This document shows positions 22,686-47,300 of a DNA stretch of 64,000 nucleotides, piece by piece. The DNA lies in the NCBI GenBank assembly GCA_003116975.1, contig BGKB01000038.1:248001-312000 (forward strand), read 5' to 3'. The position numbers and the translations under genes are program-made. How positions within the stretch are numbered: position 1 is the stretch's first letter; each line of letters begins with the position of its first letter. The notes below the pieces were generated by a model. That model had not been told where the DNA came from and did no database searches. It saw only the letters and a program-made list of their open reading frames with translations. Source of the stretch: Aurantiochytrium sp. KH105. Its lineage: Eukaryota > Sar > Bigyra > Thraustochytrida > Thraustochytriidae.

Positions 22686-25070
22686 ATGGCCGCGGTGGTG
22701 GCCAGGGGAGCCGCGGCGACGGCAGCGGCGACGACGACGGCGGCGGCAGATGTAGAATCAAGCGACTCTACGGTCCGGATGATGAGGTGCGAAGCGGAAG
22801 CCACAGAAAAGAACGTCGCGGAGACCAAGAAGCCGTCGGCGTCGCCGCAGTCGCCTTCTCCGGCGAAGAGGACCAACTTTGCACATCTCGACGTGCAGAC
22901 AAGTGCCCCGCTGACCGTGTCAGCTTGGCAAAAGGCTGCGCGAACAACGTTGCCGCTGAGGCGGTGCAAACGCAACTTGCAACGCGTTTTAGGAGAAATG
23001 ACCCGACTTGCTGACGCAGGTATGCACACAACGTGTCTCTGCCTCGGAAAATGGGCTCGCGGGGCCCTTTTCGATGCTCGAAAATGCTTGGCAAAGGAAT
23101 CGTCTAGTCCCAGCTCCCCTGAAACAGCATGGATTGCCGAGTACGAAGACCAAGTCGACCTCTTGGAGGCGGTCGCCCATCTTTCCATGGGGCATCTCTC
23201 GGGCACCCTACAAACGGTGAACCGTGTCATCAAGCGGAATGCTGATTCTTTTGCTGTGGCACGCTGTCTGCAGCTTCGTGCGCATGTCATGGTCCTCGTT
23301 GGTGTCGATAAACTTGGCGAAGAGGACATTCGCGAATGTCTTAGGGTGTTGCAGGGCGGAACGTGGCGACTTTCTCTCGATGGCGATGATCTAGCGCCCG
23401 CTGTCTTGCCTCCAATCCCGGATATGCAAATGGCGTTCAGCGCTGCAGACTGGCACCGCACGCGCCGCAAGCTCATGCAAGACCGATACCCCGAAATCAA
23501 GCAACTCTACGAGACGCGTTCGGGCTTTCCTGGCGATGGGTTTTACGAGGCAGTCTTGTTGCTCGCCATTTTTGCCTCGCACGTGTGTATGGTTTTCGTT
23601 GTCTCATATTTGCAAAGCGCACTTGCTGTGCTCATGCTCTCTGCCACTTTTGGTGCTGCGGCTGTCTACGGTTTCCAGGCGCTCAACCACGACCTTAGTC
23701 ACGTGACGCGCGTTCCCGGGATCCGTTACCTCGCGATGGTCCTTTCTTCATCTCTTTGTGTTTTCCCATGGGCCATGTATTACCAAAATTACCATGCCGT
23801 TCATCACGCCTTTACCGGAACGGATATGGATCGCGATGGCGACATCCTCTTTCAGCCATGGTACTCACCGCCACGGTTCGGAGTCCTTGTCAACCGTACG
23901 CGTCCTCGGCGATCGCGCTTTGTCCTGAAGCGATGGTCCGAGTACTTTGAGGACGAGGCCGCTCTCGAGGCGCACGAGGCACTGGTGCGGGAATTTGCCG
24001 ACGCCGGTGATAAATATTGGGCCTGGAGCATCGATTTGTCGTCTTCGTGGCAGACGCGTTTCCTGTGGTCCGTGATCGTCCCCACGTTCATGTATGTCAT
24101 GTTTCTTGTTCGCAAGTTGCTGCTCGACAGAGCGCATCGCCCCATGATTCAGTACGAGGGGCTAATGCTCATTGCACAAATCCTATGCTGGCGCGTCGGA
24201 GGAATTTATGCCCTTGCATATGTGTGGCTTTCTGGTTCGTTTTCTCACGGTGGCGCCTGCCATCCTTACTTTGGCTTTTGGTTAATCCAGCACGAAAATA
24301 CCTGGCGTCAACCCGAGCTCGACGAGGATCTCTTTCAATTTAAAGAAGCGCTTTCCATGCACAAAACGTGGCGCCCGCAAGCGCAGCCTACGATTTCCTA
24401 TACGGGTTCATGCCTCTGGCAGTATGCAAACTTTGGCGAGCTGCAACACGTCGAGCACCACGACTTTCCCATGATCCCCGCTCGGCACTACCCATTGCTT
24501 CGGACCATGGCACCAGAGTTTTTTCAGAATTTAGTCACGCGCGACTCTATCATTGACGCAATCAAGACGTGGCTTTTCGCGCCTTCTGACGAGACCTGGA
24601 TGCAACAGCATGGAGACTTTGCACGTCGCGACGTCTTTATTGAAGATCTATGGATGCGCAGATACCGATTTCCGGATGACACAGAAGAGGCTGCAGAGGC
24701 ACTTTTGGATCGAATCACGAACCCGCATCATCGCTCTGTCACCATGGGGACCTGCTATGCCTGTTCTGGGCCCATTCGTGCAGTGGGTCGTAATTCGCGT
24801 GGTCTCATTGTGGTGCGAGGCGCTGCGCTATCGTGTGGTTGTTATGGGTATCCCCTTCACGTGGCCTGCGCACGCACTCTCACGGAGTGCCCCGCGTGCA
24901 GTCGTCCCGCCTCCTCGACAGCATGCCACTGTTTGCAATCGCATATTCACAGCTGTTTGTCCAAGTCGCCCTGCTCCGAATGTAACTTGCTCAATAATCA
25001 AGGCTCCGTCCTGCCGCTCCACGCGGCCCGCTATACAGGCCCGCTCCAGCCTCCTACGACCGTATCCTGA
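22686..25070 (+). CDS. Sphingolipid delta4-desaturase-like enzyme fused to an N-terminal helical region and a C-terminal RING-CH-like zinc cluster
   Basis: 794 residues, ATG 22686, TGA stop. Three parts. Residues 1-270: Ala-rich start, then helical sequence (LLEAVAHLSMGHLSGTLQTV, CLQLRAHVMVLVG) that looks TPR-like. Residues about 280-625: a membrane di-iron desaturase with HDLSH (335-339), HAVHH (370-374) and HVEHHDFPMIP (588 onward). The HHDFP box and its place near the end of the domain are typical of DEGS dihydroceramide desaturases, which put a delta4 double bond into sphingoid bases in the ER. Residues about 690-767: Cys/His cluster with CYAC, CGC, LHVAC and CPAC, a C-x2-C / C-x-C-x5-H-x2-C / C-x2-C order like RING-CH fingers, followed by more Cys pairs (CHC, CSEC). 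DEGS proteins normally lack both flanks. No break or splice consensus separates the parts. Substrate and finger function are inferred. Confidence 0.8.
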   Translation: MAAVVARGAAATAAATTTAAADVESSDSTVRMMRCEAEATEKNVAETKKPSASPQSPSPAKRTNFAHLDVQTSAPLTVSAWQKAARTTLPLRRCKRNLQRVLGEMTRLADAGMHTTCLCLGKWARGALFDARKCLAKESSSPSSPETAWIAEYEDQVDLLEAVAHLSMGHLSGTLQTVNRVIKRNADSFAVARCLQLRAHVMVLVGVDKLGEEDIRECLRVLQGGTWRLSLDGDDLAPAVLPPIPDMQMAFSAADWHRTRRKLMQDRYPEIKQLYETRSGFPGDGFYEAVLLLAIFASHVCMVFVVSYLQSALAVLMLSATFGAAAVYGFQALNHDLSHVTRVPGIRYLAMVLSSSLCVFPWAMYYQNYHAVHHAFTGTDMDRDGDILFQPWYSPPRFGVLVNRTRPRRSRFVLKRWSEYFEDEAALEAHEALVREFADAGDKYWAWSIDLSSSWQTRFLWSVIVPTFMYVMFLVRKLLLDRAHRPMIQYEGLMLIAQILCWRVGGIYALAYVWLSGSFSHGGACHPYFGFWLIQHENTWRQPELDEDLFQFKEALSMHKTWRPQAQPTISYTGSCLWQYANFGELQHVEHHDFPMIPARHYPLLRTMAPEFFQNLVTRDSIIDAIKTWLFAPSDETWMQQHGDFARRDVFIEDLWMRRYRFPDDTEEAAEALLDRITNPHHRSVTMGTCYACSGPIRAVGRNSRGLIVVRGAALSCGCYGYPLHVACARTLTECPACSRPASSTACHCLQSHIHSCLSKSPCSECNLLNNQGSVLPLHAARYTGPLQPPTTVS

Positions 25071-25426
25071 CTGCGAGTAGTAAACCCAAAGTAACGAAGC
25101 CGTCGCCACCTTTCTTTTCGCCTCTTTCGGCTAAAAGCAGTGGACACACGTCTGCGCGCCATCTTGTCCTGCTCTGATTTTCTCTGCTCCGCACATGCTT
25201 CGGTTCTGGACCCAGGGCCTCCAACGACTGCGTGCAAGCGGCACAGCCAGCCTTGGCCGGCGCAAGAGCGAGAGCAGAAGGCTGGAGGGAGCGTGCGAGC
25301 CGCTGCCGTGCGCGTTGGCCACGAAAGATAGCCTCATGTTTTCTGCCCGGCTGCCTGCCTAGCAGGTAATAGTATCCTAGATTGGGACTCGCGCTCCAAC
25401 CGCCGTTAACCGACTTGCGTGCATGG

Positions 25427-25470
<44 letters not shown>
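25427..25470. repeat. Tetranucleotide array (TTGA)11
   Basis: About eleven perfect units of TTGA (equally TGAT/GATT), a microsatellite in the intergenic region. Confidence 0.93.
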
Positions 25471-25813
25471 CACTCTCTTTTTTGGTATCAAAGAAAGACA
25501 TTGACGGCTGAAAGACACGAGTCAATCAAAGCAAAGAATCGTCGCGCACGAGCCCACTCACAGTCAGTCAGTGTGAGGACATTGACATGTGAGGCGCGAC
25601 AGCAGCGACATGGCCCAGCACCGATGGCTTGCTGGAGCAGGCTGGGTGGTGTGCAACCGCCGGCGGCCTCGCTCGAGAGAGATACCGACGATCGTCCGAG
25701 GTCGAGCGCCCGTCGCGACCGTCAGGCAAGCCCGGCTGCAGATTGGAAGCGAGGAAGGAAGCGAGAGGAGCAAGGAGGAAGGAGAAAGGACGAAAGACGC
25801 AGGGGCGACCAAC

Positions 25814-25842
25814 TGATTGATTGATTGATTGATTGACTGATT
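25814..25842. repeat. Tetranucleotide array (TGAT)n, second copy
   Basis: Seven or so units of the same tetranucleotide motif as at 25427, on the same strand, with one T-to-C change near the right end. It lies about 290 bases upstream of the SAM-domain gene start. Confidence 0.85.
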
Positions 25843-26130
25843 GCTCTCCTCCGCGTGGATACGCGACGAACCGACCACCAGAGCCAAGGCAAAACAGCAA
25901 CAGGAGCAAGGCCCCGGCGAGCAGACGCCCCCGCGCGCGCGCGCGCCCGCTCGGACGAGGTCCCAACGCCGCACGGCGAAGACGGAGACGGAGACGAAGA
26001 CGACGAAGGTGAAGCCAGAGTTTGGCGCAAGTCGAGGTCGTAGACGAGTTCCAACGGCGGGACGCGACGGGACGAGCGAGACCCATCGCGAGCACGTTGT
26101 GATAACCAGACGTTCACTCGAGAAGGGAAA

Positions 26131-28989
26131 ATGCTGAGCGTCCTCGAGCAGGACCCCGTGCAGGTGTTGGCCAGAGTGCGCAAGAGCAAGCGAGGAGCCG
26201 GGCTCACGAGCTGCCGCGCAGAGGTCGAGGTCATCATCGGCGATACACCCGCACGTGTGACTGACAAACAACGACTTGAAGTTCGGGTGCCGCCTCGCAT
26301 GCCCGTGATCGACTGGTTCGAAACGGAGCTTGCACCTCAATTCGTCCAGGGCCCCGTGCGCGCACAAGTCATCGAGGATGAGCAAGACATCACGCTCTAC
26401 TTTGACTCGCGATTCATGTTCGACTGCTTCGCTGCAGGTAGTGATGAGCGCTTCGAGAACCTTGACCAGCTGAGCGACATCGCGCAGTACGAATTTGCCC
26501 AGAGCGTGGCGCTCGACTACTTTGGTCCGCGCCGCGTGCCCTCCCACTTCCGCAGACGTCAAGCCATTCTCGTGCGCGTGCACAGTCTCATCAAACGCCA
26601 CTGGCTTCGTTTTGCCTGGACAAGGCTCATGCAGCGGGCCTCACCAAGCCGCAAAGTCAATGAGCGCCTCGTGGATCTGCTCACGCGCAACTTTGCGCGC
26701 AATCGTCGTCATCGTTGTCTTCGCGAGGTTTTTCAGGCCTGGTCCACCGCGAGCGCGAACCGGAAGCGCCGACATTCGCTCGTTGGCCGGCTCGTCAATA
26801 AAGCCTCCTTTGCGCAGAAGAATCTGGCCTTTCAGGCTCTCTTTCGCAACGCTTTGCGCTCCAAAATGGACGAGCTCGTCTACGACAACCAGCCATCTCA
26901 GACTGTGAACAAGCTCATTTCCAGCGCCCGACGCGAGGGTCTCGACTCGCAGGGCGTCCTTTCGCCACAATTAATCCTCAAATACCTAATGGAGAGACAT
27001 CTGGACATTGAAGGCGACCTCGTGAATCAGGTCATGCGAAGCCCCATTAAAAAACAGCAAAAAGGTAGTCCCGATGGTGCCCGGCCCTCCCGAGGGTCTT
27101 CTGCGCGTAAACCTTTGCGTGCTAGGTCTGGACTTGGTGCTGCGAGTACGAGCGTCAGCACAGAGCAGACTCGGCGCTCCGGCGTAGTGAATACGCCCGA
27201 AAAACCGTCCTCGACATTTAGCTCCCCATGTCCAGACAGTGGTGACTTTATCTCTGCGACACCGAGCAAGTCGGCAGAGACTCACAGGCAAGATGCGCGC
27301 TCGGCGCGAGCGTCTGTGCGCCGAGCTGCAAATGGTAATTTCCGTCGCGCGAGCCCGCTCTCCGAGTACCTGCGGGCGCAACACTTTCAACGCAATCAAG
27401 ACGCATCCACGCCTCAGTCTGGAAATACTTTTGCCACACCAGAACACACTCCGATACCACAAATTCGCTCGCGAGCACACCCGCATTCGCAATCGCGTTG
27501 CGCAACCCTGCCACCCACGCCGGAACATGTTCCTGAAGTCATGACCCCCGTTGCAAAGACGTGCGTGCCGCTGCCAGCCTTTGGCAATGAGAATGCTGAT
27601 TTTTCGCGACAAGGACACCCGTTTCGGGAAGGTGACGAAAGTCCCAACGAGGCAGTTGGAACACCGGGCACGGAAATGCCGGACGCACAGCTACCCGAGG
27701 ATGATGCGTCTATGATCTCCTGCGAAGATCCTGCATTCGGTCCTTCGAGCGAGAGCGAAATTGCTGGCGCTGGATACACGAGTTGCTTTGCCGACACCTC
27801 GTCCAAACGTGGAAACGGTGCCATGCGTTCTGAAGATGCGGAGGCGAGTCGCCGCATTACCGATTCTTCGATATCTTCGGGAGATAGCGCGCTCTCAGCA
27901 TGGCGGCAACAGGCGCGTGGCAACCAGGAGCGCGCGCGCGGAGTGCAGCTCGGGGCTTCTTTTAGCGCCGATCTGTCTGGATCATCTTCGGTCCGTGACA
28001 GTCTCGATCCTCTCTCGCACGCTTGCAATGGTGGTGTGAGCGGCGCTGAAACGGAACGTGCTCGGACGCAAAATGCCAAACTTGGTCATCGTGGATGGCA
28101 TGGCAGGGCCATGGAAAGAAAGGCCGCAATGTCCCGTACACCATTGTCTGCAGGTCTCGTGTCAAAGTGGCAGGTCATGAGCTCGCCCTCGTCTGCCAAC
28201 TCGAGCTCATCGCAAGAAACCTATCTTGTTGGACCTCCCACCCGCATGCGCAACCTTAGCGCATACGAAATTCCGGAAACGCCTGGGCCGGAGAGCGACA
28301 GTCAGTCGTCTTCATTTACCTCGCCTGCGCTCGCATCCTCGGCGGCAAGCTACAACAAGCGACGTCAACGCCAGCGCCGGGAACAAGAAAGCCAGTCGAG
28401 TGCAAGCTCTCTTGGGTCGGGCGTCGTGCAACTGCTCCAGACACTTGGACTTGATGGCTTCGTGGACAGGTTTGTCGAGGAAGATCTTACGGACCTTTCA
28501 CTGCTGGTGCGAATGTGTGTTGCCGACAAGCGAGAGTTCAAAGAGACACTTCGGGAGATGGGCATCATGAAGATTGGTCAGCGCGAGCGAATCGTTCGTG
28601 CTCTTCTCGAGGAGCACGAGAATATGCAAGAAACTTCTTCACGAAAGTCGAGTGCCTCAAAGAAAAGCAAGAGGAAGAAAAAGCGCAAGACGCCTAAATT
28701 CGAAGAACCCAACGTTGTCCGTGCGCTTCAGGACAGTCAGCGGCGCGAAACCGAAGCGAATCGCAAGATATCGTCCCAGTCGCAGATTCAACTCAAAAAG
28801 ATCTCTAAGAAGGTGCTGCAAACGGTGCAAGGGCCCCTCTCGACGAGTGTACCACGGTCCGCACAAATTGTCGCGCCCATCGATACGAGCAAAGCCAAGC
28901 AGCTGAGGGCCGTCTTTCGTCCCAGCGGCGAAGTCGAGGGCTTTCAGTTACGCTGCGATTACTACCGACGTCTGGGTCTCAAGGTTTGA
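26131..28989 (+). CDS. SAM-domain protein of unknown function
   Basis: 952 residues, ATG 26131, TGA stop. I do not recognise the full-length family. Residues 1-130 look like a small globular domain (LEVRVPPRMPVIDWFETELA). Residues about 150-250 are Arg/Trp-rich helices (HRCLREVFQAWSTASANRKR, KNLAFQALFRNALRSK) with a spacing that recalls Sfi1/centrin-binding repeats, though weakly. The middle (about 300-750) is Ser/Thr-Pro-rich and disordered, with many TP and SP sites. Residues about 764-830 form a SAM domain (VVQLLQTLGLDGFVDRFVEE, then REFKETLREMGIMKIGQRER), usable for homo- or hetero-oligomerisation. A Lys/Arg cluster follows (KKSKRKKKRK) and a conserved-looking basic C-terminus. A cytoskeletal or cell-cycle scaffold is plausible, but this is inference. 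Confidence 0.72.
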   Translation: MLSVLEQDPVQVLARVRKSKRGAGLTSCRAEVEVIIGDTPARVTDKQRLEVRVPPRMPVIDWFETELAPQFVQGPVRAQVIEDEQDITLYFDSRFMFDCFAAGSDERFENLDQLSDIAQYEFAQSVALDYFGPRRVPSHFRRRQAILVRVHSLIKRHWLRFAWTRLMQRASPSRKVNERLVDLLTRNFARNRRHRCLREVFQAWSTASANRKRRHSLVGRLVNKASFAQKNLAFQALFRNALRSKMDELVYDNQPSQTVNKLISSARREGLDSQGVLSPQLILKYLMERHLDIEGDLVNQVMRSPIKKQQKGSPDGARPSRGSSARKPLRARSGLGAASTSVSTEQTRRSGVVNTPEKPSSTFSSPCPDSGDFISATPSKSAETHRQDARSARASVRRAANGNFRRASPLSEYLRAQHFQRNQDASTPQSGNTFATPEHTPIPQIRSRAHPHSQSRCATLPPTPEHVPEVMTPVAKTCVPLPAFGNENADFSRQGHPFREGDESPNEAVGTPGTEMPDAQLPEDDASMISCEDPAFGPSSESEIAGAGYTSCFADTSSKRGNGAMRSEDAEASRRITDSSISSGDSALSAWRQQARGNQERARGVQLGASFSADLSGSSSVRDSLDPLSHACNGGVSGAETERARTQNAKLGHRGWHGRAMERKAAMSRTPLSAGLVSKWQVMSSPSSANSSSSQETYLVGPPTRMRNLSAYEIPETPGPESDSQSSSFTSPALASSAASYNKRRQRQRREQESQSSASSLGSGVVQLLQTLGLDGFVDRFVEEDLTDLSLLVRMCVADKREFKETLREMGIMKIGQRERIVRALLEEHENMQETSSRKSSASKKSKRKKKRKTPKFEEPNVVRALQDSQRRETEANRKISSQSQIQLKKISKKVLQTVQGPLSTSVPRSAQIVAPIDTSKAKQLRAVFRPSGEVEGFQLRCDYYRRLGLKV

Positions 28990-32386: not shown

Positions 32387-35300
32387 ATGCTCGAGGGAAT
32401 CGTAGCTGGCGTCTTGAACAAATCGCTCGGGTGGCTCATCGACGATCTGAACAGCGATAATCTCAGCGTCGGCATCTCCAAGGGCGACATCTTTCTCCAG
32501 AATGTCAAGGTCAAAGCTTCGGCACTAAAGGACGCAGGGCTACCGCTGGAGCTTGCTCATGGCTCGCTCGGGAAGCTGCGAATCCGAATTCCATGGACAA
32601 ATCTCTACAATGCGCCGGTTCGCGTCGAGGTGGACGACGTCTTCTTGCGCGTTCGCTGTGCGCGCGCAGAGACTGTTGGACGAGCTGGAGCTGAGGGTCA
32701 CGCAGACGGGGATGGAGACTCTGAGACAGATGAACAGGAAAGTCGAGAGGCGGTACTTGAGGCCCTCGACGCCTCGCGCAAGAGAGCCCTTGCTGCTTTT
32801 CAAAAGGGCCTCCGCCCTGCTCCTGCAGAGTCTTGGTCGGGCCGCCTCATTTCTGGCATTACCTGCGCAGTCATTCAAAACTTACTCGTCACAGTGACGA
32901 ACGTTCACATCCAAATCGACCATCGAGATAACGTCACCGACAGAGTCTTTCAGGTTGGCCTTGCAATTCCTGTGCTCAAGGTTGCACCCATTGCAAGCTC
33001 ACGGGAACCCGAAGCAGGATGTGTGCGCAAAACGGCTTCGGTGGAGGGTCTCCGCATCTATCACAGAGAGCCCGAGGTCGCCAATGTATCGCCATTGGAC
33101 ATTTTTGACGCAGACACCTACCTGGAGGATGGTGTAAGCTTGTTGTTGGAGCCTCTCGACGTCAACGTGCGTATTCCCGCACTGTATGTAAAGGGCTCTC
33201 CACCGGCGTCAAAACCAGCTTTGCAGATCATCGTCGATATCAAACGCGTCGCCATGAGCTTTGATGCACGCCAGACCAAACAGGTCACCGCTTTGGCTAC
33301 CTATTGCGCGCAGGAGACCGTCATTATGACAAGCGGCTGCAAGCGCCCTCGGCTGCGCCCCGATCAATCTCCCGGCGCGTGGTGGACCTTTGTCTTGCAT
33401 CGGGTGAGACATGATCTGCGAGCGCGACGCCGGCGTCTTTCGTGGCTGCGTCTTGCGGGGCTTTTCACCAAGAGCCAGACGTATGCTTCTCTTTATACCC
33501 GCAAATTTCCCGGGGGTGCTGCAACCGTGGATCAGCTACAGGCTACCCTGCAGCTCTCCGTTCAGGATAGCGCAAAGTTGCGCAAACTAGAGAACAGCCT
33601 CACCGATGCAGAAGTGATGGCGTTTCGCACGCTATCAGAACTGCGCCTTGTGCAAGAGTTCAACTTGGAACAGCAAGAGAGCTTTTCGCATCGATGGCTC
33701 GGCGTTGGTGGCAGCTCAACAAGATCTATTCGCGAGCATGCCGCAGCTCTTGCGCGCGCTGAAGCTGCAAAATTTTACGGCAACCCTGCGCGTCCCGACG
33801 ACAGCGTGATCCAGTTCGATGTCTTCGCCGCGGTGCATGAATGCAAACTGCAGCTGGCAGGTCTTCTCTCTGTCGAGGTCGACTACCTGGCCACCAAGGC
33901 GATCAAACAGGGTCCACAAACAAAGGGCGACATTCAAATTCTTGACGTGCGCATGGCATCCGATGCGACTCTCAGCAAACCGAGCATCCTCGCCTTTCCC
34001 GACAAAGTCATTGGTGATCCGTGCTGTGAAGTCATCTTTACGCTGCGCGACGGAACCTCTGGCGAGGCCAGCGAGATTGTTGCCGCCTTTGAACCTCTGG
34101 ACTTTTGGCTCGACGCTTCATTGCCCCGAGCCATCGAGTCGTACGCACGCGTTAGTCTGCTCGGGGCCTCCCATGTCATCAACGAGGAAGACATCATCAT
34201 CGAAGAGGCGCACAATCTTCGCACGTTCAATCAAGGCAAACGTCGCGACGCGCAAAAGGCCATGGCTCACATGCAAATATCCTTACACATGCGTGATCTG
34301 AGTGTACATGTGCCTATGCCGTCCAGACGATCGTTCACAAGATCCGAAGTCGATGCCGGGCCCGATGACGCTATTCTCATTCATGTTGAGGATGTCAAGT
34401 TGCACAAGGTCGACGAGCCCAATCTATGCACTTCGAACATTGCATTGAGTTGCGGAAAAATTAGTCTCGATCATGTCAAGGTTCTTCCCGCCAGTTCTTG
34501 CGTCCTCAGAGGGGTCGAGACGGCATCCATCCTGCGCCCGCTCGACTTTGGTCTTGATGTCACCATGAATCAGTGTGCCGAGGATCAATTATGCGATCTT
34601 CTCGCTGTGAATCTGGACCTGAATTCGTCCGTACAGATCAACGTGTCCACGAGGTCTCTGCGTCGAGTTCTCGCGTTGCAAGCTGCTCTCGAGGCCGCCT
34701 TGGATCTTCCAAGTACGAGCCCGGACCCAACACTCAAGTCCATTGCCCCTGGAGCACTGCAAGTCACACAAGCAGAGGCAGAGCAACTTGCGCAACGGGT
34801 TCGTATGCGCGTCAACGTTTCGCTCGTCTCGTTCGTACTTGATCTGCAGGCAAGCGAAGCGCAAACCGGAATCTCAATTTCAGGGTCCAAGATTCTCGTT
34901 GAACAGGTCTCGCGGACGTTTGGCTCGCAGGCAAGGGTCGAGATTGCCTCTTTGCACATTTCTGGCGTCAGTGGGGTCGTTGACGCCTTAGTGTTGAAGA
35001 ACGCGTATTTCTGGCGCAATGCGCAATCCGCACTTCGCCCCGTTTGGCTTCCTGTGCCAGGCTTTCTCGGCGACAACACCGACCAAATTCTCTTCAACGT
35101 CGACGATGCCGTCGTGTTCCGCGCCACCGCGCTCGACGTCTGCGCCGAAGACCAACTGTTGTCCTCCGTCATGACGCTGCAGCAAGAGGCGCAGCAACAA
35201 ATCGCTGCTGTCGAGTCCACGAATATGCAACAAGAAAAGAGTAGAAATGGAACACCGCCTTTGAGGAGTGCACCACCGCGCTCGATCTCTGCTTTTGTGC

Positions 35301-38300
35301 TTGTAGATCAATCGACCATGTGCATGCGAAGAGCAGACGACACAGGAGACGTCGTCGTCATTCGTATTGCCAGCGTTGAGGCAACTTTGCTCGACATGAA
35401 GAGCAAACACTATGGAGATGGCACCGAACCCGATCGCGATTTCTTTGCAACTGCAATGGTTGGCGGGGCCCGCGCCCACTCGGGTGGTCGGAATGCAGAA
35501 GAGGGCCTCTTGTGGACAGGTGAAACCTGGCCGACGCCAACGCTCTGTGATATTGCATGGATGCGTCGTGTTTTCACCGCAAAGGACGCCTTCGTTAGCC
35601 TGCAAGTCTCACGCGAGACTCCAGAAAGTCACTTTGATGTGTCAGCAAACTTGGCGCGGCTCCGCTTACATGTGTCATCTCCACTTGCCGCCAATTTACT
35701 CCAGTTTGCAAATGAGATGGGGGCCATTGTCAGCGCATACACGGCGCCGAGTCCCGATGCAGACGCTTCTAATGAAGGTGTGGGAGGAGGAGATATCGAT
35801 GATGATGATGATAATGATTTCACGGCCGCGAGGGACCGGCGCACGGGGTCGCTTGTAGGTGAGCAGAACCAAGGCGCCGATGTGGCGATCCAAATCACTG
35901 AGATAGCAATACTCATTCCACGAGATCCCTCTGCTGACACCGGCGTCGCGTGGGATTCACGTGATATGGTCGTGAGCCAGCTCAATGAGCTCGCTGTCCA
36001 GGCTTCCTTTGGCCCAGGTCGGCTCGGAACCACCACCGATGGAAGCTCACGTCGCGACTCGTTGTACTCTGATCCATCGGCTATCCTTGGCGACGATTCG
36101 GACGGTTTCTACGATGCACGGTCCGCTGCTTCAGATGGACTGTCGGCGCGCAATTTTCTGGAAATGTCTCTCTCTGCGCAAGTGGCCCTCACCAATTTTT
36201 CAATCGAGACCTGGTCCTTTCATCGCGACCTGTATCAGACCCTTGTCCGCCTGTCCATGGCAACGGCCATACAAATGGAACCCGGACATCACGACCTCCG
36301 CTTCAATGTTACTCCGGCTGTGATTGCGTGTTCTCAAGAGCAGTACGCTCTCCTTCTCGACGCCGTGGCTGCAAATGACTTTGCAAGTATCTCTGCGTCC
36401 TCAGGCGCCGCCGCTGCACCGGCCCCAGCGGCCGTTGAAACGAGCCAAGCGCGAAGTCGAAGAACTTCTGCAGTATCCAATCGCTCGAGGCGCACGAGTC
36501 GTGCCGATGAGATTGGAAGTGCACGAAATGGACAACTTGATGGCGAAGAAGACAACGGAAACTGCCACGTTGTATCGTTGAACTGCTCTTTCGAGTCTCT
36601 GACTGTGACGCTGTTTCTCGACGCTGGCGGCGACCAGCTTCCGCGACCTCGCGAACGGGACGAAGTTCTTTCGCGCGAGAAACGTGCTTTGGGGCGCGAG
36701 CTTCTTCGTTTCCACGCCAAAGGAATGCTTGCAACTCTCGAGAGTCCAGCTTTTCCAGACGAGGGCACCGGCGAGGTTGTGCTGCAGCATATGGAACTGA
36801 GAACCTCGAGTACGTCAGGTCGTAAGCACCACGCTCTTAAAACCGACCGAGAGCCCTTTTTTGTCACAACATTTGCGCTCGCTCCTGATCTTGTGGAGAT
36901 CAACGGTCGTCTCGCTAGTATCACAATCGAGACATTCGAACTCGTTTCTGCAATGGCCACCTTTTCTCAGGTCCAAGATCACCTGCGCGTTCGGTCACTA
37001 GATGACGTCAAAGCGGGTGATGGCCTGCATTCTGTCTCAACTCGACAACTCCAAGAAAGTCGAGCGGCGAACACTTCGAACGCGGCGACGGAGGCCGCAT
37101 TTTTGCAATCTTACCACGCCAGGCAATCAAACGTCCCGCAGCGCATTCTCTTGCCCAAGAATGTGCGCTTTTCAATGTCTTGCGAGGAGTTCGCCGCATC
37201 GCTTTCGCCTGCCAAGTCGGCTCAAAAGCTCGTCTTCGCGCTGGCCTTCCAGGCGAGTGCCAAGGTTGTCAAAGACGCGCGGGCCGAGGTCCACGTTGCA
37301 GTCCAAAACATCAACCTTGCCCGAAGAAACGCGACGCCGAACTCATTGCCTGCACGAGTAACCGACGCCAGCAGCGTGGGTGCGGGTACGGGCGCAGATG
37401 CTGGCGCAGATGCAATGCACAACGACGACTCGATCGTTTGGTACTTGCTGCGGCCCTTTTCGCTCAATTTGCAAGCAAACGTTCAGATTCCAGGCCAAGA
37501 GAACCCAACCTTGCGACAAGATGTTGTCTCGGCCGAGCTCAACGTGGAGAGCATTCAGGTCGAAGTCGGTCGTGAGGAGTATGCACTCTTGATGGAAGCC
37601 GCAAGCGTTGACGCGTCATCGTCCTCTCAGCATGGCTCTGGGGATGACAAAAGCACCGAGACAGACGCTAGGGCTGGCGCTCCTGCATCTTCTTCGGAGC
37701 CAACGACTTCCACCGAAACGTATGCCCCAGCTCCACTGCCAAAGCGTCGCGAGGTGCGGTTGAAGCTATGCATAGAAGACTCGTCTGTAGCGCTTTTTGA
37801 AGACTGGACCGAATTTCGTCCTCCAATCGTGCAAGCGAGACTGCAGCGCTTTGAGCTTACCGCCTCACAATACGACTTTCGCGACCTGCACTGTCAGTCT
37901 CGCGTGGACCTTGATGTTTTGCTCTCTGCATCATACTGGAATAAGAGACACGGATCATGGGAGTCCATGATCGACCCGTGGTGCTGCCACATCGGAGCCG
38001 ACAGTCCACAATTTGTCCAGGAGTCCCCCAAGGAGCGCCTCGTGCAAACTCTGGGCTACGACAAGGAAGCCCCTGTCAATCCTCTGCGGTTGGCTTCCTT
38101 GTTTGCCAATTTCGAGTCAACTCAAATGCTCAACGTCAATGTGACCTCGGCTGCAGTGCAGCAGCTAACCAAGGCACAAGATCTCACAGCGATCGACAAT
38201 TATACCAAGCGTGCACTCGGGGATCTCGCGCATGACCGTAGGCGCGCCCCGGGCTCGAGATCGGCCGATGATGACAGTCTGATTGTCCGTAATGAGACCG

Positions 38301-41300
38301 GGTCCCAAGTGACCGCACGATTGCGTCGTGTGAATGTCACCTCGACTGGAGGGTTTTTTGGCGCTCTTGTCGGAGACAGCGACGATCACGCCTTTTATCG
38401 TGCACGCATCGTTGGCTGCTGGGCCTTCAAGTCTGACCCAACGGGTGCTCTGTGGAAAAAACGGTATATCACGGTCGAAGGCGGCTCACTCAAGTACTAT
38501 AAAAGTATGAAGGCCTTCCGTAAGGCGCAGCCGCAAGGTATCATTAAGCTGCGTGCTGGATCCAAGTCTGTCTTTGTCAGAATGCAGGGAATGGTTCCTC
38601 CGAGGATCTACCGCAGCCATCAAATGCTTCGTGAATGCGCTTTTCAGGTGGTGACACCCTCTCGCGTGTACGGTTTCATCACCTTTGGTCTTGAGGATAA
38701 GGAACGCATGACCCGTGCTTTGCTTCAAGTGCTCGCAGTTGAACCGAATCCTCTCGACATTGAAGGCTCTCGCGGCATCAATGCATTTCCTGCAAAGGTG
38801 TACTCCGTCCGTGTGAGCCGTGGCGTAGCGGATCGAGTCGCACGGCAAGATACGGACGAACTCGAGCCGGGGAACGACGACAAGGCTCGAACACAAATGC
38901 ACGAAGACCTCGAGACCACGGCTGCCAAGATCCTACTTGATGGGCACAGCTTGTATGTCTTTGACGAGGAAGTCGACCTCGAGGCGCAAAAGGGCGACGA
39001 AGTCCACGCGTCTCCGCTCATTGCCATCGATTTACAGGCATTTTGTGTCGTGAGACAGCCGCAAGGGAGATCGCACCGCATTGAGATCATTGGCCCCGAG
39101 TTCCGGGTTGTGGCAGACAATGTCGATGTCGCCTCCAATATCTGCAGTGATGTGCTCTCGCGCACACGCACGGCATTGAGTGTCGGCCCAACAGACGAGG
39201 TTATGGAGCAGGCTCGTCCGGATGAGAACAACGCGCCGGATAAGACGCTTCGCATCGACTTTCAAATGAAGTTAAAGGGGGATAAGCCAATTGAAAACGC
39301 ATCCTCCTTGCGGGTTATCATGCTTCCATCCGGTCTCGACGCACGTGTAGAGGACCTCGAAACCTTGAGCGGTACAGTCTCTTTGCCAACGTCCACAAAG
39401 TGGTGCACCGTGGACCAAATTCTTCGTTTCGATGTGCTCGGCGGCGTGTCGGGCGAAGACATCCTCGCGAGCACACATATGATACTTTCGGCGGTCGAGC
39501 GCCCAGATGATCTGCAGCGACGGGAAGAAATCTCGTTGTATTCAACTCTAAAAGATACATTTGCTCGACCTGACCTGCGAGACCCATGTGCAACCCTGAT
39601 AGCGTCCGTGACGCTTCCCGAGTCAATTATTTCAGGAAGTGGCCTTGGCCAAAGAACCGAGGACGCTTCTGGTCGCATAGAGGCCGGCCAGAACTTATCG
39701 CTCAAACTCGCTGGCGGAGAGTATCGTAGCGCGCACGAACGCCAAGCCCCTGGCCTCCGCATCCAAATTGACGGCTTTGTCGAAAGTGTTCCAGTCCCCG
39801 TTGATCGTGCAAGTAGGTTTGCTGTCCCCCTTCACTCGCAGCAAAGCGATCTTTACGGGCCAGACGCTAGCCCCGAACTAGCTGCGACAAGCCTCTTCCG
39901 CTTTCAGAATGTGCCATTTATGGGCTTGGTGGATATTCATTTTGAAGAAGGCGAAAAGCTTGCGAAGGTCTCGTCCTGTGCAATGTTGAAAAACCGATTG
40001 CAAGAGCAAGTCAATCTTACGTTCCAAAAGCTTGCTCTGCACGCGCCTCTTAAAGCTGACGACGGCCATGCATCAGAAGGTCAGGCTTCGCAGCGTCTGG
40101 CATTCGATCAACGAGTTGACACCGCGTGGGTCGCGGTACTTTCATCTTCTCGCAACGGAGACCGTGCATCGAACTGCGCGGAATACGTAAGCCCGACGGG
40201 ATCCTCCACGAAAGCTGTACTGTATTCAGTTGCATCAGGGCCGAGCACAAGTAGCAGCTCTTATGCACCCAGTGCCTGGGTTCTTCAAGGCTACGCAGAA
40301 GACACCAACGAGTGGGTGGACCTGGACGCGCGCAGCGAGGTCGTCTTCACCGAAGCTGCACAACTTCGAGATTTTGCTGTGGACAAGGTGCACGCGTGCA
40401 CGCGGTTCCGCATTCGAATTTTAGACGGAAAACGCCTTGGAAGCGAGGGACCCGGACGCACTCGCGTGCAAAGCAAATCATTGTCTTCTTCGAGTCCATC
40501 ATTGTCCGATGGATACAAAGTACATGTCGGCAACGTTGTGCTGTACTGGTCTTCGGAAAACGACTTTCGCCGCGATGTTTCGCTCTTGCCCAACGAGACG
40601 ACGCATGTTCCGATCGAGTGTCTCGGCGCGGGCGGTGTACTGTGGGCAGACAATGGCGAGCCAACACGCATCCACGAGTTTCTCGATATTCACCCCTGGC
40701 GCATGGCAAACCAGCCAGCGCGTCGAAAGCCACGATACGTACCAGTGAGCATGGATTTGCGGGCAGACAAGATTGCACCGCAGGCTGAAAGATTTTGTGT
40801 CATGCATGTGAGCTTTCACCACGTCAGAGATATCGCCAAAACGCTCAGCGAACGAGATGGGTCATCCCCTCGGTGGATTCTGACTCTCGATCCTCCCGTT
40901 CGTGTTGAGAATGTGCTGCCCTTTGCGCTTGAGGCGCGCCTGGCGCGTTCGGTAAAGGGCCAAATTCTCGCCTTGAACGATGACGGGTCTGGCAATGCTC
41001 GTGCTGTTGTTGCGCGTGGCGAGCAGGAGCAATTCTTCGACGTCGACCCTGCAATCGGAACAGAGGGGTCACATTGGCGTCAGAACTTGGAAGGAGGGGC
41101 TGTGGTAGAGGCAATTATGCTTCATTTTGCGATCCGTCGCGAGTCGGAGCTCCTACGTAGCGACCCGGACGAGGCGCCCATGATTCTTGGCGAAGATCGT
41201 GAGTCTACGTATCAGGTGAGCATGCAAGGTAATCCAGATCTCTTTATCGACGTACAAGTGATCCCAGCTTCAGCAAAGGAGGAGCGCGACCCTGACCATC

Positions 41301-44300
41301 AGCATACGCACGCCGATGATAACATCGATGAGTATGTCGACGCCGTGGAAGCGGGCGCGGAGCCCGACGAAGCTGACGAAGGCTTTGGCGCAGCTCTTTC
41401 GATTCCGAGCAGCGCGACCTCGTTTGTTGCCGAAGCGTTGCAGAACTCTCGCGACGGCGATGCCTGGGATGGTCCGATTCCGTGTCTATGGCGCTCAAGA
41501 AGCGTCCCGCCGCTTCGCGTCATTTTGTATTGCCGCTTCCTGGTTTTGAACTGGTCTGGACTGCCTCTTATTTTCGCTGGCAAGGCTCCCTCGCGGTCGC
41601 TGCGCACAAAGATTGTGCCTCAGGCGTTCCAGACAAGTGAAGGCGACCGGTCGGAGAGGGAGGAAGAGGAGAAAGTGGACGAGGGCTTGGGGATGGAAAA
41701 GGTATCGTTAGGCAAGGCAGGTTCCAAAAGCGCCAAAAAGTTGCTGCGGCTCAACATGTTTTCCCCTAAAGAGGAAAAGATGACCATGTCGCTCGAGAAC
41801 GACCGTAGCGGTTGGTCGCGCGAATTTGGACTTGTAGTTGGTATGTCAGGCGAGGTCACCATTCCTCCCACTCCTGGAGCTTCCATCGTGCACCAGGTTG
41901 GCGTTCAAGTGACGAGCGGATCTGGTATTTTCTTGCGCACCAAGGTGGTCACGCTCACGCCCCGTTTCGTTGTGGCAAATCTCACGCAAGAACCGATTTA
42001 CTTGCAACAAATTGGTGCAAATGAAGGCGATTGGCAACTCCAGCTCGATGCCGGTGTGTTTGCTCCGTTTCATCCTGTCGATGTCAATGGAGATGGTGCG
42101 CTCGATGCAAAGGACTTTGCTGCGCGTATCGGGGTGCAGCAGCAGGACGGATCTACGGGCGCTATGATGGTCTCACCTCACTTTCACCTTGACATTGTCA
42201 AAGAGCACTTGTTGCTGCTAGGGCCTGATGACGCCAAGCCAGCATCAATGCAAGAGTGCACTTGGAGAAACACGCTTGCTGCGCCTGTTGTTGCGAGACG
42301 AGCGTCCGAAGATCAGGCAGGACGAAGAGCTGCGGACCTCATCAACGCGAACGTGGAACTCATTGACAACGTTGTCCGAATTGTCTTGAGCAAGCCTCAC
42401 CGCGCACGCGCGTACGAGTATCGTATCGACAATCTGAGCTCTTTCGTGCGTATCGGTGTAGTTCAGCATAAGCAGAGTCATGCGAATATGGTCATGCTCG
42501 GCCCGGATGAACACAAGGTGGAATTTGTTTGGCCTGCTCCGGGAAAGAAACGAACAGTGGAGGTATTCCTAGAACTCGTGGGTCTCGACGCTCTCCGCTT
42601 TATTCCGCGGTCAAAGTATCGCACAATTGTATCTGTAGATTTTGACTCGCTGCGTGATCCACTTCGCGTGCAGGTTGGCGACCTGCAAGTAGAGGTTCGC
42701 GTCTCGGTGGAGGGTATTACCAGAGTGCTGTCTGTCTCCGACCTTGCCGAAGCACGTGCGAGAAACCAAGTGCGCAAGGTCCTGCAAGAGCATGTGCAAC
42801 GCATCGAGTCACGGCTCCTCTCTGACCAGCAGCTCCTCTTGAGCAACATGACTCCTGCGGTGATGAAGGCCAACGCAAGCGGTGATGGGCATGGTTCATC
42901 TGCAGCTATAGATGGTGATGCCTACACATCTTGGCGAAGCGCGCAGCCACCGGCATCGCGTACCAAACTCGAATGCGAACTCGATGGTGAGCACGGCGAA
43001 TGCATCGACGCATACTCTTTCACGGTCGCGAGCCTTTCGTTGCATCCGCGTCGCTGGAAGCTCTATGGGCGACGTGCCAGGGCTGTGACTGACACAAGTT
43101 CTCTCGTCGGCGATGACGACGACGAATGGGAGCTTCTTGATGATCGTACCGATCCGTCGTTGCGCAAGGACCTCAAGTACTTTGAGGTGTCGCGATCACG
43201 TCAAACGCGTACAACTGCGTTCCGATTGCCCTTTGGCTCCCCTCCCTGCAGCGCTTTCAAACTCGTGGTTGAAGGTCCTTTCGAGGTACGGCACTTGAAT
43301 TTTTACAGGTCCCGAACGTCACTTGCAGCTGACACCTTGGCAGGTGAAAACATGCAAGAAACGTCGGAGATCTGGGGCGATCAAACTCACGTGTGGATAG
43401 CCTTGCTTGAAGCTCGCGATCTCCCTGTGATGGACATTTACTCGAGTGACCCCTATGTAAAGATTCATGTGGGCAATCAGCATCAGCGTAGCAAGACCGT
43501 GTCGCGCTCACTTCATCCCTGTTTTGACGAGGAGTTCTACTTTGACCTGCACGGGCCTCTGAATCAAGTGTTGGAGTTTGAGGTTTTTGACAAGGACCTT
43601 TTCACATCAGACGATTTGATCGGACGCGCCTCGATTGAGCTTGACAATTACACTTTACGCAACGGCTCACCGATGGAGGTTTGGGTTACGCTCTGGGATG
43701 GCAACGCGCCCCGTGGTCAGCTTCGCTTGGCAATGCAAGTCTACACGCTCATGACAAGCGAGGTGGACGCTACGTGTGGCGACAATCGGCTCGGAAGCAT
43801 TGATGCGATTGTAGAAGAAGGGGACATGAATGGTGAAAGTGATGATGCTGGTGATGCTGCAAGCATTGCGAAGCAAGGTCTTGAGTGCACTCCTTCGCGT
43901 CCGGAACTCTCGAGTGTGCGCTTCCCTGCACTCTTTGAGGAAGAGCTGGGACTCTTGCGCGCCCTCAGGGACAAGCTTGTGAAGGAAGGCGGTGTTTTAC
44001 GAGCACTCTCCACCTTCAGGTCTGTTGGCACGTACGATGGGCATTGGAGCAGACAATGGATGCGACGAGGCTCATTGAGTCGAACGCCATCGAATGGGTC
44101 ATTCACTTCGCCCCCGCAACAAACGCGCGTGGATCATGGCCCCACATTACAGATGCAAGACCTCGACACGGATATCAAGGTGCGACTAAACATGACTGTT
44201 CTCCAGGCTGATAAGATCATCGACCCGCTCTCGATAGGCTGGAAATCGCAGCGGGGCAAACTTTCGCGTGATGACATCGAAGTCTATTGCGTTGTTTCGT

Positions 44301-47300
44301 ACGGAGACCGAGTTCTGCGAACAGATCCAATGCCTATGGTTCGCAGAAATGACGCGGAGGAGAGTCCTTCGCAGGCGCGTTCGCCCAGCTGGATGGGTCA
44401 ACCCGCTTCAAGACAATCCGATCGCACCTCAACGCAAGCGTACGAGTTTGAGGAAACGTTCGAGGAAGTGGGTCCCCTCGGCTTGCAGCTCGAGCGGCTT
44501 GACGATGGATCCTTTTGCGTGCGTACCATTGCATTGGAGAGCGCAGCGGCGCGAAAGAGCCGGCTACGACCTGGACTTCGGCTCACGGGAATCCAAAATA
44601 CCCGCCTATCTGCAGACTGGAGTCTGTCTGCTCTGCGTGATATGCTTGGTACTTCACCGAGGCCCCTGCGACTCCGCTTCGAAGAGGATATGGTCTCGGT
44701 GCACCCCGAACCTCCGTTGCCCACAGCAATTGATTCTGAAGCGGAGCTGGCGCGGATTTCGTGGATGCAACAGCTTACCTTTGACGAGGCAGATACCTTA
44801 CGTGCGCGAGCGCGGCAAGAGTCGGATTCATTCGGGACAAACGCAAAAGGTCTCGAAGGCCAGCGTGCTCGAATTTCTCTCTATGCGCGTGACCGTCGTG
44901 AAGCTCCTTCGCTGGATCTGTCTTCGGCGGGCGAGACGGACAAGGAGATACTCGTTCCTCTACTTTTTATGTTTGGCGAAGACATTGAGACAGACAGTGA
45001 GCTGAACGCTGCGCGTGAAATGCGTGGAGACAAGGATGTGCTTTTGGGCCATGGCACTGTGCTGCTTCCCGAATTGAGCGTCGCGCCAACGGCAGCAGGG
45101 GCCGCTCGACGCCAGGTGGACTGCCCGCTTGCACTGCCGGGCAATATCTTTGCGGGTCAAGTGTCGCTCGAAGTGAGCTGGAACGCCGCGCCGCCTGATG
45201 CTTCGGACATCGTGAAGCTCGCTCTCGACGTTCGCTTGGCAGGCTTGGGTATCTCTCTTGTTGACACGACGACGCGGCAGTGCGAGCTGGCCTACATGTC
45301 CGTGCGAGATGCGCGGTGTTATGTGGCTCAATATGGCAATGGACGTCAAGTCTTGGACTTTCGCCTGGGCGCTCTGCAGGTCGATAACCAGCTGCCTTCG
45401 CCGGTGCACCCAATTGTTTTAAGCGCCGCGCCCGTGCCCTATGCGTGGTTGACGCACGAAGAGGCGTGTGCTTCGACTGACTTCGTACGAAAGGACGCGC
45501 TGGAACGTGCGACTGACATAGCCGTGTCGCAGCCTGCGTTCTTGCTGACTGTGGTCAAGCGCGACCTCGGTGACTCTTCGTCCATGTATGTTGAGTATTG
45601 CGAGGCATTCTTGCAAGAGGTGAATCTTCGACTTGAGGAGCGCTGGCTCACGGCGGTCCAAGAGTTTGCGGCTTCGTTCTCCTCGCAGCAACCTGACAAC
45701 GCTGCTCCTGCTGTGGACGCTGCTGGGAAGCGCTGGCGTAGCAAGGACGGTGACGAAAGCAGTAGCGATGGAGCGAGTCTGCACGACACGGGGTCGGCCA
45801 GGGATTCCGAACGTGAACGTGGTCAAAATTCTTATCGCCAACATCAAGGTGACGAACAAGAAGGACGCCACGCAGGTCAGGAGCGCGACGAGGCGATGGC
45901 TCAAGATGGAGAGAACGCGTGGAGCGCCTTTTGCCCGAACGCGCCGTTTCAATGGGTGGACTCTCTCTCGGCGAGATCCGGGGCAGATACGCACGCGCGC
46001 ATTCTCATTGAGCGGGCCGACCTGAAACCTGTGAAAATCAACCTCACCTTTTCCATGACTTCGGACGTGGAGTCTCGTGCGGACAACCGACTCAAAATTC
46101 TGCATTTGATGCAGGGCATCCCCGTTCTGGCTGCGCTCTTTAGCGCGCTCGTGAACACTGTGGCAAATATCACGGATGCCCCATTACGATTTAATTCGTT
46201 GCAGATCTTCAACGAGAGTCTCTCGCAAACGATGCTGCGGAACACCTTTGTGCAGCACATTATGGGTCAGCTCTTGGGCAACCTTTCGCAGATGGGTAAT
46301 CTATTGGCCTCTGCAGATCTACTGGGGAGCCCTGTGCAGCTGATTGGCAGTTTCGGTCAGGGAGCGTACTCCTTCTTTTATGAGCCAGCGTTGGCCATGT
46401 CCATGGGCGGATACCTCTCGATCGGCAAGGGACTGCGCAAGGGGGGAGTGGAGCTGGTACGTAGCACAACGCATGGTGCGTCTGCATCTCTGGAGAAGTT
46501 TGCCGAGTCGGCGAGTCGTGCGTTGAGCCAAGCTTCCTTGGACTCGCGATACGTGCGACTTCAAGCTCGTCGGCGCATGGACGTGGTGCACGAGCCAATC
46601 AATCTTATTGAAGGTGCCCTCTCCAGCTCGGAGGCTCTGAGTCTGGGCATGCTCGACGCCTTGACCGGCATTGTGAGTCTGCCTGTGCGCGATGTCTCGT
46701 ATCGGGGAGCAACAGGAGTAATCACAGGCGCAGGCAAGGCTGTTGCTGGCATTTTTGTCAAGCCTGTTTGCGCCATGTGTGACGCGACGTCACTCTTTTT
46801 CAAGGGCGTTCGCAACACTACGGAAACTCTTCACAAGCAGCAATTGCCCGTCCGCTTGCCGCGCATGGTGCGTGCCGGCCACCAGCTCGGGCCATATTCT
46901 GCGCGCGAGGCAATTGGAGTATACTTGCTGCGCCGCTGCGGCATTGCAGACACGCAGACGTACGTTTATCACGAGTACGTGTTTGGCGCCCCGGCGCCTG
47001 GAACACCGTCTGGGCTTCTCGACTCGCATGCGCAGGATGAGGAGGTCTTTGAGCACTGGGTCGAACACAACCCGCTCGTGTTGCTCGTCACGGAAGGCCT
47101 CGTTTTGCTTTTGCACATTCGGACAACGGAGACGTTATGGTGCGCCCCCTTGAGCAGCGTGCGGACGACTGGATTTGGTCGCATGGTCGAAGTCGTGCTG
47201 GCCTCGAGTGCGGGTGCGATGCCGATTGTGCGTCGCGCGTCGGCGATGCAGCAGCACCAACAGCACGCAGTCGACTCGCGACGCGTAACACCAGCAATTG

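Follow-up and report, generated by a model that had tools for sequence, protein, structure and literature searches.

The gene at positions 22686 to 25070 of the 64,000-nucleotide stretch of Aurantiochytrium sp. KH105 analyzed here (contig BGKB01000038.1, or C38, positions 248,001 to 312,000; hereafter the window) encodes a protein in which three parts follow one another along a single frame: a TPR-like helical region, then a desaturase resembling DEGS, then a C-terminal module rich in Cys and His. An earlier note, made from the sequence alone, had described one frame with the desaturase boxes HDLSH, HAVHH and HVEHH and a C-terminal Cys/His cluster, and this description holds over all 794 residues. 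The combination of the three parts in one protein is real, and the architecture is conserved. It seems new as a domain order, the kind of enzyme itself being known, and is apparently undescribed. We think it likely that the protein desaturates or hydroxylates lipids in a membrane, belongs to a separate lineage distantly related to DEGS, the enzyme that completes ceramide, and is equipped with a TPR-like docking domain and a zinc module of three sites. Feature coordinates are collected in Table 1.

Conservation of the architecture

Protein searches identified two proteins, P0002 (769 residues) and P0003 (899 residues), that contain all three parts in the same order. Four further relatives (P0004, P0006, P0007 and P0008) have a TPR-like block followed by the desaturase, with 42-49% identity across the desaturase part, and lack the zinc module in the available sequences. 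The annotated gene model of P0004 is possibly cut short. Altogether, the TPR-like block was present in 7 of 10 aligned proteins. Scoring in these searches was restricted to the candidates with most words in common (7,995, 7,996 and 7,996), and some relatives may have been missed. Two peptide-pattern scans of bacterial and archaeal genomes and viral contigs confirmed no desaturase relatives: 74 stretches of viral contigs and 101 of genome contigs each matched one of the two patterns, and none was confirmed.

A maximum-likelihood tree was built from 18 desaturase domains, with P0005 and P0010 left out. In it, the nine rows of this lineage split from nine DEGS-type rows with support of 100/100. 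The seven TPR-bearing proteins grouped together at 80/91, and the three zinc-bearing proteins at 83/86, in a tree for which the program warned of long branches (P0011, P0018) that possibly join falsely. The existence of four relatives without the zinc module suggests that the TPR part is probably older and that the module was gained later, an order that holds if P0004 and P0006-P0008 truly lack it.

The desaturase domain and its relation to DEGS

Against PF00487, the window protein scored 28.2 bits, under the cut-off of 29.7, which P0002-P0004 and P0006-P0008 pass. The Lipid_DES-like segment preceding the domain scored 20.2 bits against PF08557 in the protein scan (cut-off 23) and 24.4 bits in the genome search; P0006 and P0009 pass the cut-off for this family. 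A profile search of the PDB with the desaturase part gave no match. All ten core histidines were identical across the 18 rows, nine from this lineage and nine of DEGS type. At four positions (W256, Y366, Q535 and L586), the lineage is fixed otherwise than the DEGS-type rows. Two differences lie between H526 and H536: residue 535 is Q in 9/9 rows of this lineage and E in 9/9 DEGS-type rows, and F531 of the window protein is replaced by H in 8/9 DEGS-type rows.

What the window protein has in common with DEGS/DES1 proteins is a core built around the same ten histidines, HHDFP after box 3 and, near the family cut-off, a Lipid_DES-like segment. It differs from them by the added N-terminal and C-terminal domains and by its place on a separate branch of the tree. 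Sphingolipid-type desaturases usually stand alone and have about 320 residues. The nine DEGS-type rows were 320-390 residues long, bearing out the claim of the earlier note that the architecture is unlike that of DEGS-type proteins. As the lineage does not group with these proteins in the tree, the window protein is better described as DEGS-like than as DEGS.

The same genome contains a separate DEGS-type locus, found at C242:229418-232525 (L012) and on C48 (L011), with its parts in two frames. It is probably the ordinary sphingolipid Delta4-desaturase of the organism. With this second locus in the genome and the window protein on a separate deep branch, the ceramide desaturation that the earlier note had assumed stays unproven.

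A 388-residue "delta-4" desaturase of a thraustochytrid strain has been described as 100% similar to Hondaea GBG25593.1 (PMC7073664). This enzyme may correspond either to the DEGS-type locus or to a partial model of the window gene; fitting L012 to the gene length given there was unsuccessful. The fusion is not described in the accessible parts of PMC7698632 and PMC9530390, and titles and abstract starts of the open-licence literature that we found name no TPR- or zinc-fused desaturase.

Two side observations concern desaturase folds. P0003 has a long Ala-rich low-complexity insert in its desaturase domain, after histidine box 2 and before the later membrane part; the fragment P0010 shares it. 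The best VIA-align rows were 8xks_K and 8xqw_M, two chains from Orf2971/Ycf2-FtsHi motor complexes (that of 8xqw being from Chlamydomonas), and the entry titles do not identify these chains. Desaturase-like folds may occur as subunits of such complexes.

The TPR-like domain

The structure prediction for residues 91-220 was confident, with block means of the predicted local distance difference test (pLDDT) of 84-98. The model shows tandem antiparallel helix hairpins in TPR-type stacking and aligns to solved TPR domains, including that of Arabidopsis FLU (4yvo; root mean square deviation 1.6 over 116 residues). As in FLU and the AIP/FKBP-type co-chaperones, there are three helical hairpins. Unlike those TPR domains, the window protein had no TPR family match in the profile scan. 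Among the relatives, TPR_12 reached 16.3 bits in P0007 (cut-off 30.1) and TPR_2 12.9 bits in P0008 (cut-off 27). A PDB profile search with the N-terminal block returned no TPR protein, the best match being the RNA polymerase subunit Rpb6 (E = 0.11). The TPR-like helices proposed in the earlier note do precede the desaturase, but they extend over about residues 91-224 rather than about 270 residues.

The C-terminal Cys/His module

The module contains a C4HC3 cluster and a further H-C-C-C group. Its spacing is nearly fixed in the three module-bearing proteins: C-x2-C-x23-C-x-C-x(4-5)-H-x2-C-x6-C-x2-C-x(14 or 28)-H-x3-C-x5-C-x2-C. Where the window sequence has Cys or His, 12 of 16 gap-free columns were invariant; elsewhere in the module, the figure was 10 of 70 (Fisher p = 4.5e-6). 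The twelve invariant candidate ligands suffice for three metal sites, and we therefore expect three zinc sites, one more than the two put forward in the earlier note.

A genome search with the module recovered the two copies of this gene and one hit on C16 (E = 0.138), a repeat-rich stretch that by eye is a chance match. Structure prediction gave no confident fold for the module (mean pLDDT 40.5 for the module alone, block means of 38-66 in the full-length model), and a PDB search with the structure model was uninformative (best E = 2.0). The corresponding PDB profile search gave five matches up to E = 10, led by SAGA-associated factor 11 (E = 0.24), followed by FAAP20, DNA polymerase kappa and a LIM-domain protein. 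Readings of the module as RING-CH, RING-H2, PHD, C1, LITAF-like or UBZ-like were all rejected as not significant. The LITAF-like match (E = 0.0027; 18.2 vs 23.8 bits) came from a P0003 fragment; the listing for the full-length protein did not include it, and neither of the other two proteins showed it. PHD_NSD gave E = 0.11 (13.3 bits) with P0003 at full length and E = 0.3 (11.8 bits) with the fragment, against a cut-off of 23.9 bits.

Comparison with RING domains

The ligand order C4HC3 is that of RING-CH (RINGv/MARCH, PF12906) domains, and the earlier note had read the cluster as a RING-CH-like, E3-like finger. We compared the module with RING and C1 domains of the same genome, using 11 RINGv rows (20 loci), 15 RING_2 rows (30 loci of 146 matches) and 8 C1 rows (12 loci), with near-identical rows collapsed; from L037 and L067 no excerpt could be used. 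Measured against the 4 of 11 RINGv excerpts that show the full pattern, ligands 4 and 5 are 4-5 residues apart in the module rather than 7, and ligands 6 and 7 are 6 apart rather than 12-19.

In RING domains, a W, an I/V and an R/K position serve E2 binding. When the aligned rows were counted by eye, the W four residues past ligand 6 was present in 10/11 RINGv and 15/15 RING_2 excerpts, with Leu in all three modules. The I/V before ligand 2 is found in 15/15 RING_2 excerpts (A, A and S in the modules), and the R/K after ligand 8 in 14/15 (S, K and G). Comparison by hhalign gave probabilities of 14.4% for RINGv, 17.7% for RING_2 and 1.5% for C1, the latter a poor comparison because the C1 set includes at least one misread row (L072); in the positive control, RINGv against RING_2 reached 96.9%. 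Profile scans of the window protein, its relatives and the modules detected no zinc family, RING types included, at its Pfam cut-off, and the best RING score was that of zf-C3HC4_3 in the P0002 module (8.2 bits vs 27). The module thus shares the ligand order of RING-CH domains, but differs from RING-CH and RING-H2 E3 domains in its spacings, its mostly missing E2-contact residues and its third site. The comparison does not support the RING-CH E3 finger of the earlier note. We leave the type of the zinc module unassigned, leaning weakly to the RING side.

Gene copies and the public gene model

The gene lies in an assembly of 76 Mb in 367 contigs. A genome search identified a second copy on C63 that is 99% identical and retains the frame. 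The copies differ in 59 codons synonymously and in 11 non-synonymously; of these 11, 8 lie in residues 1-99. Among 25 candidates scored, the genome has 22 PF00487 matches, most of which pair up at near-equal score. Together with the 99% identical copy of our gene, which is not itself among the 22, this pairing suggests that the assembly represents two haplotypes.

The public protein P0005 from Hondaea fermentalgiana, a thraustochytrid of the Labyrinthulomycetes, is annotated as "Sphingolipid delta4-desaturase DES1" and has 1407 residues. Over residues 105-716 it differs from the window protein by the single change G399E, which the C63 copy also has. By this near identity, the source organism is probably H. 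fermentalgiana or a very close relative. P0005 follows the window protein as far as ...RGAALS; from there on it has VLEQDPVQV..., the opening of the next open reading frame (ORF; 26131-28989). This model leaves out a GT-AG interval that takes most of the zinc module, and thereby joins the desaturase to the next ORF.

If the public model were correct, the zinc module would be intronic and the desaturase fused to a downstream ORF of 952 residues. The GT-AG interval does explain the junction in P0005. We nevertheless consider the splice highly improbable. In P0002 and P0003, the skipped module runs on directly from the desaturase, and the acceptor that the model requires falls 8 bases within the ATG-starting frame of the next ORF. 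In addition, C38 and C63 have 7 mismatches and no gaps in 24834-25067, inside the supposed intron, and all 7 are at third codon positions (chance about 0.0005). The following intergenic part, 25071-26130, shows no such bias, with 46 mismatches distributed 16/12/18 by frame position and 12 gap runs. These observations and the mostly synonymous differences over the whole gene argue that the interval is not an intron and that the zinc module is coding. The public P0005 record would then hide the module and merge two genes, and deserves checking.

The next ORF itself had no Pfam match at E <= 0.001. Further downstream, the plus strand of the window contains one frame of 5250 residues (32387-48139) with VPS13_N, VPS13_VAB, C2 and VPS13_C domains and a C-terminal PX domain, which looks like a VPS13-type lipid transfer protein.

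Table 1. Features of the desaturase gene and its surroundings in the window
Feature	Position	Strand	Basis or remark
Whole gene	22686-25070	+	Single frame, 794 aa then TGA; second copy C63 (L010)
N-terminal low-complexity stretch, residues 1-74, probably disordered	22686-22907	+	Block-mean pLDDT 35-54; start codon uncertain
TPR-like domain, residues 91-224 (~130 residues), six helices	22956-23357	+	Structure model, fold match
Lipid_DES-like segment, residues 253-277	23442-23516	+	PF08557
Membrane desaturase domain, about residues 283-661	23532-24668	+	PF00487, structure model
Histidine box 1, HDLSH, residues 335-339	23688-23702	+	H335, H339 identical in 18/18 rows
Histidine box 2, HAVHH, residues 370-374	23793-23807	+	H370, H373, H374 identical in 18/18 rows
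Extra His pair, HPYFGFWLIQH, residues 526-536	24261-24293	+	H526, H536 identical in 18/18 rows
Histidine box 3, HVEHH, residues 588-592, then DFP	24447-24461	+	H588, H591, H592 identical in 18/18 rows
C4HC3 cluster, candidate ligands C690 C693 C717 C719 H725 C728 C735 C738	24753-24899	+	Invariant in 3/3
Third candidate metal site, H753-x3-C757-x5-C763-x2-C766	24942-24983	+	Invariant in 3/3 module-bearing proteins
GT-AG interval left out of P0005, 1306 bases	24833-26138	+	Judged not an intron

Discussion

DEGS and SCD enzymes reside in the endoplasmic reticulum with both ends in the cytosol, and the histidine core of the desaturase family holds two irons. By analogy, the window protein is most likely a desaturase or hydroxylase of this membrane with both ends cytosolic, and its histidine core would bind two irons and oxidise a lipid with a long chain, for which a sphingoid base or ceramide is a possible candidate. 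The TPR and zinc modules would probably bind partners that position or regulate it, for instance a protein donating electrons, a regulator or further enzymes of lipid metabolism. The second of these modules is most likely a docking or regulatory domain rather than a ubiquitin ligase.

The protein could instead be a regulatory pseudo-enzyme, an inactive desaturase fold acting as a lipid sensor and anchored by its TPR and zinc parts. The separate DEGS-type locus, the long divergence from DEGS and the four positions fixed otherwise would fit such a role, which we still regard as unlikely, as the ten core histidines are kept in every row and the allele differences are mostly synonymous. A ubiquitin-ligase version of the module is possible, with little to support it. 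The C4HC3 order, a CPxC at ligands 7-8 in two of the three sequences, the zf-C3HC4_3 match at E = 3 on the P0002 module and the ranking of the two RING comparisons as best of the three (E of 0.0019 for RINGv and 0.0014 for RING_2, each as a single comparison) would agree with the module being an atypical E3 of the RING type, adding ubiquitin to the desaturase itself or to a partner recruited by the TPR part. The ligand spacings, unlike those of RINGv and RING_2 in the same genome, and the mostly missing residues of E2-binding RINGs make this quite unlikely. Very unlikely, in our view, is a desaturase that combines a TPR arm for recruiting partners with an atypical zinc E3 or a ubiquitin reader in cis, built stepwise by addition of the TPR and then the zinc part; if true, lipid state, partner binding and protein turnover would be coupled in one polypeptide.

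We favor the reading as an active lipid enzyme with docking or regulatory domains. Thraustochytrids are used for lipid production, and a conserved lineage with domains on both flanks of the enzyme offers a route to studying how membrane desaturases are placed and regulated.
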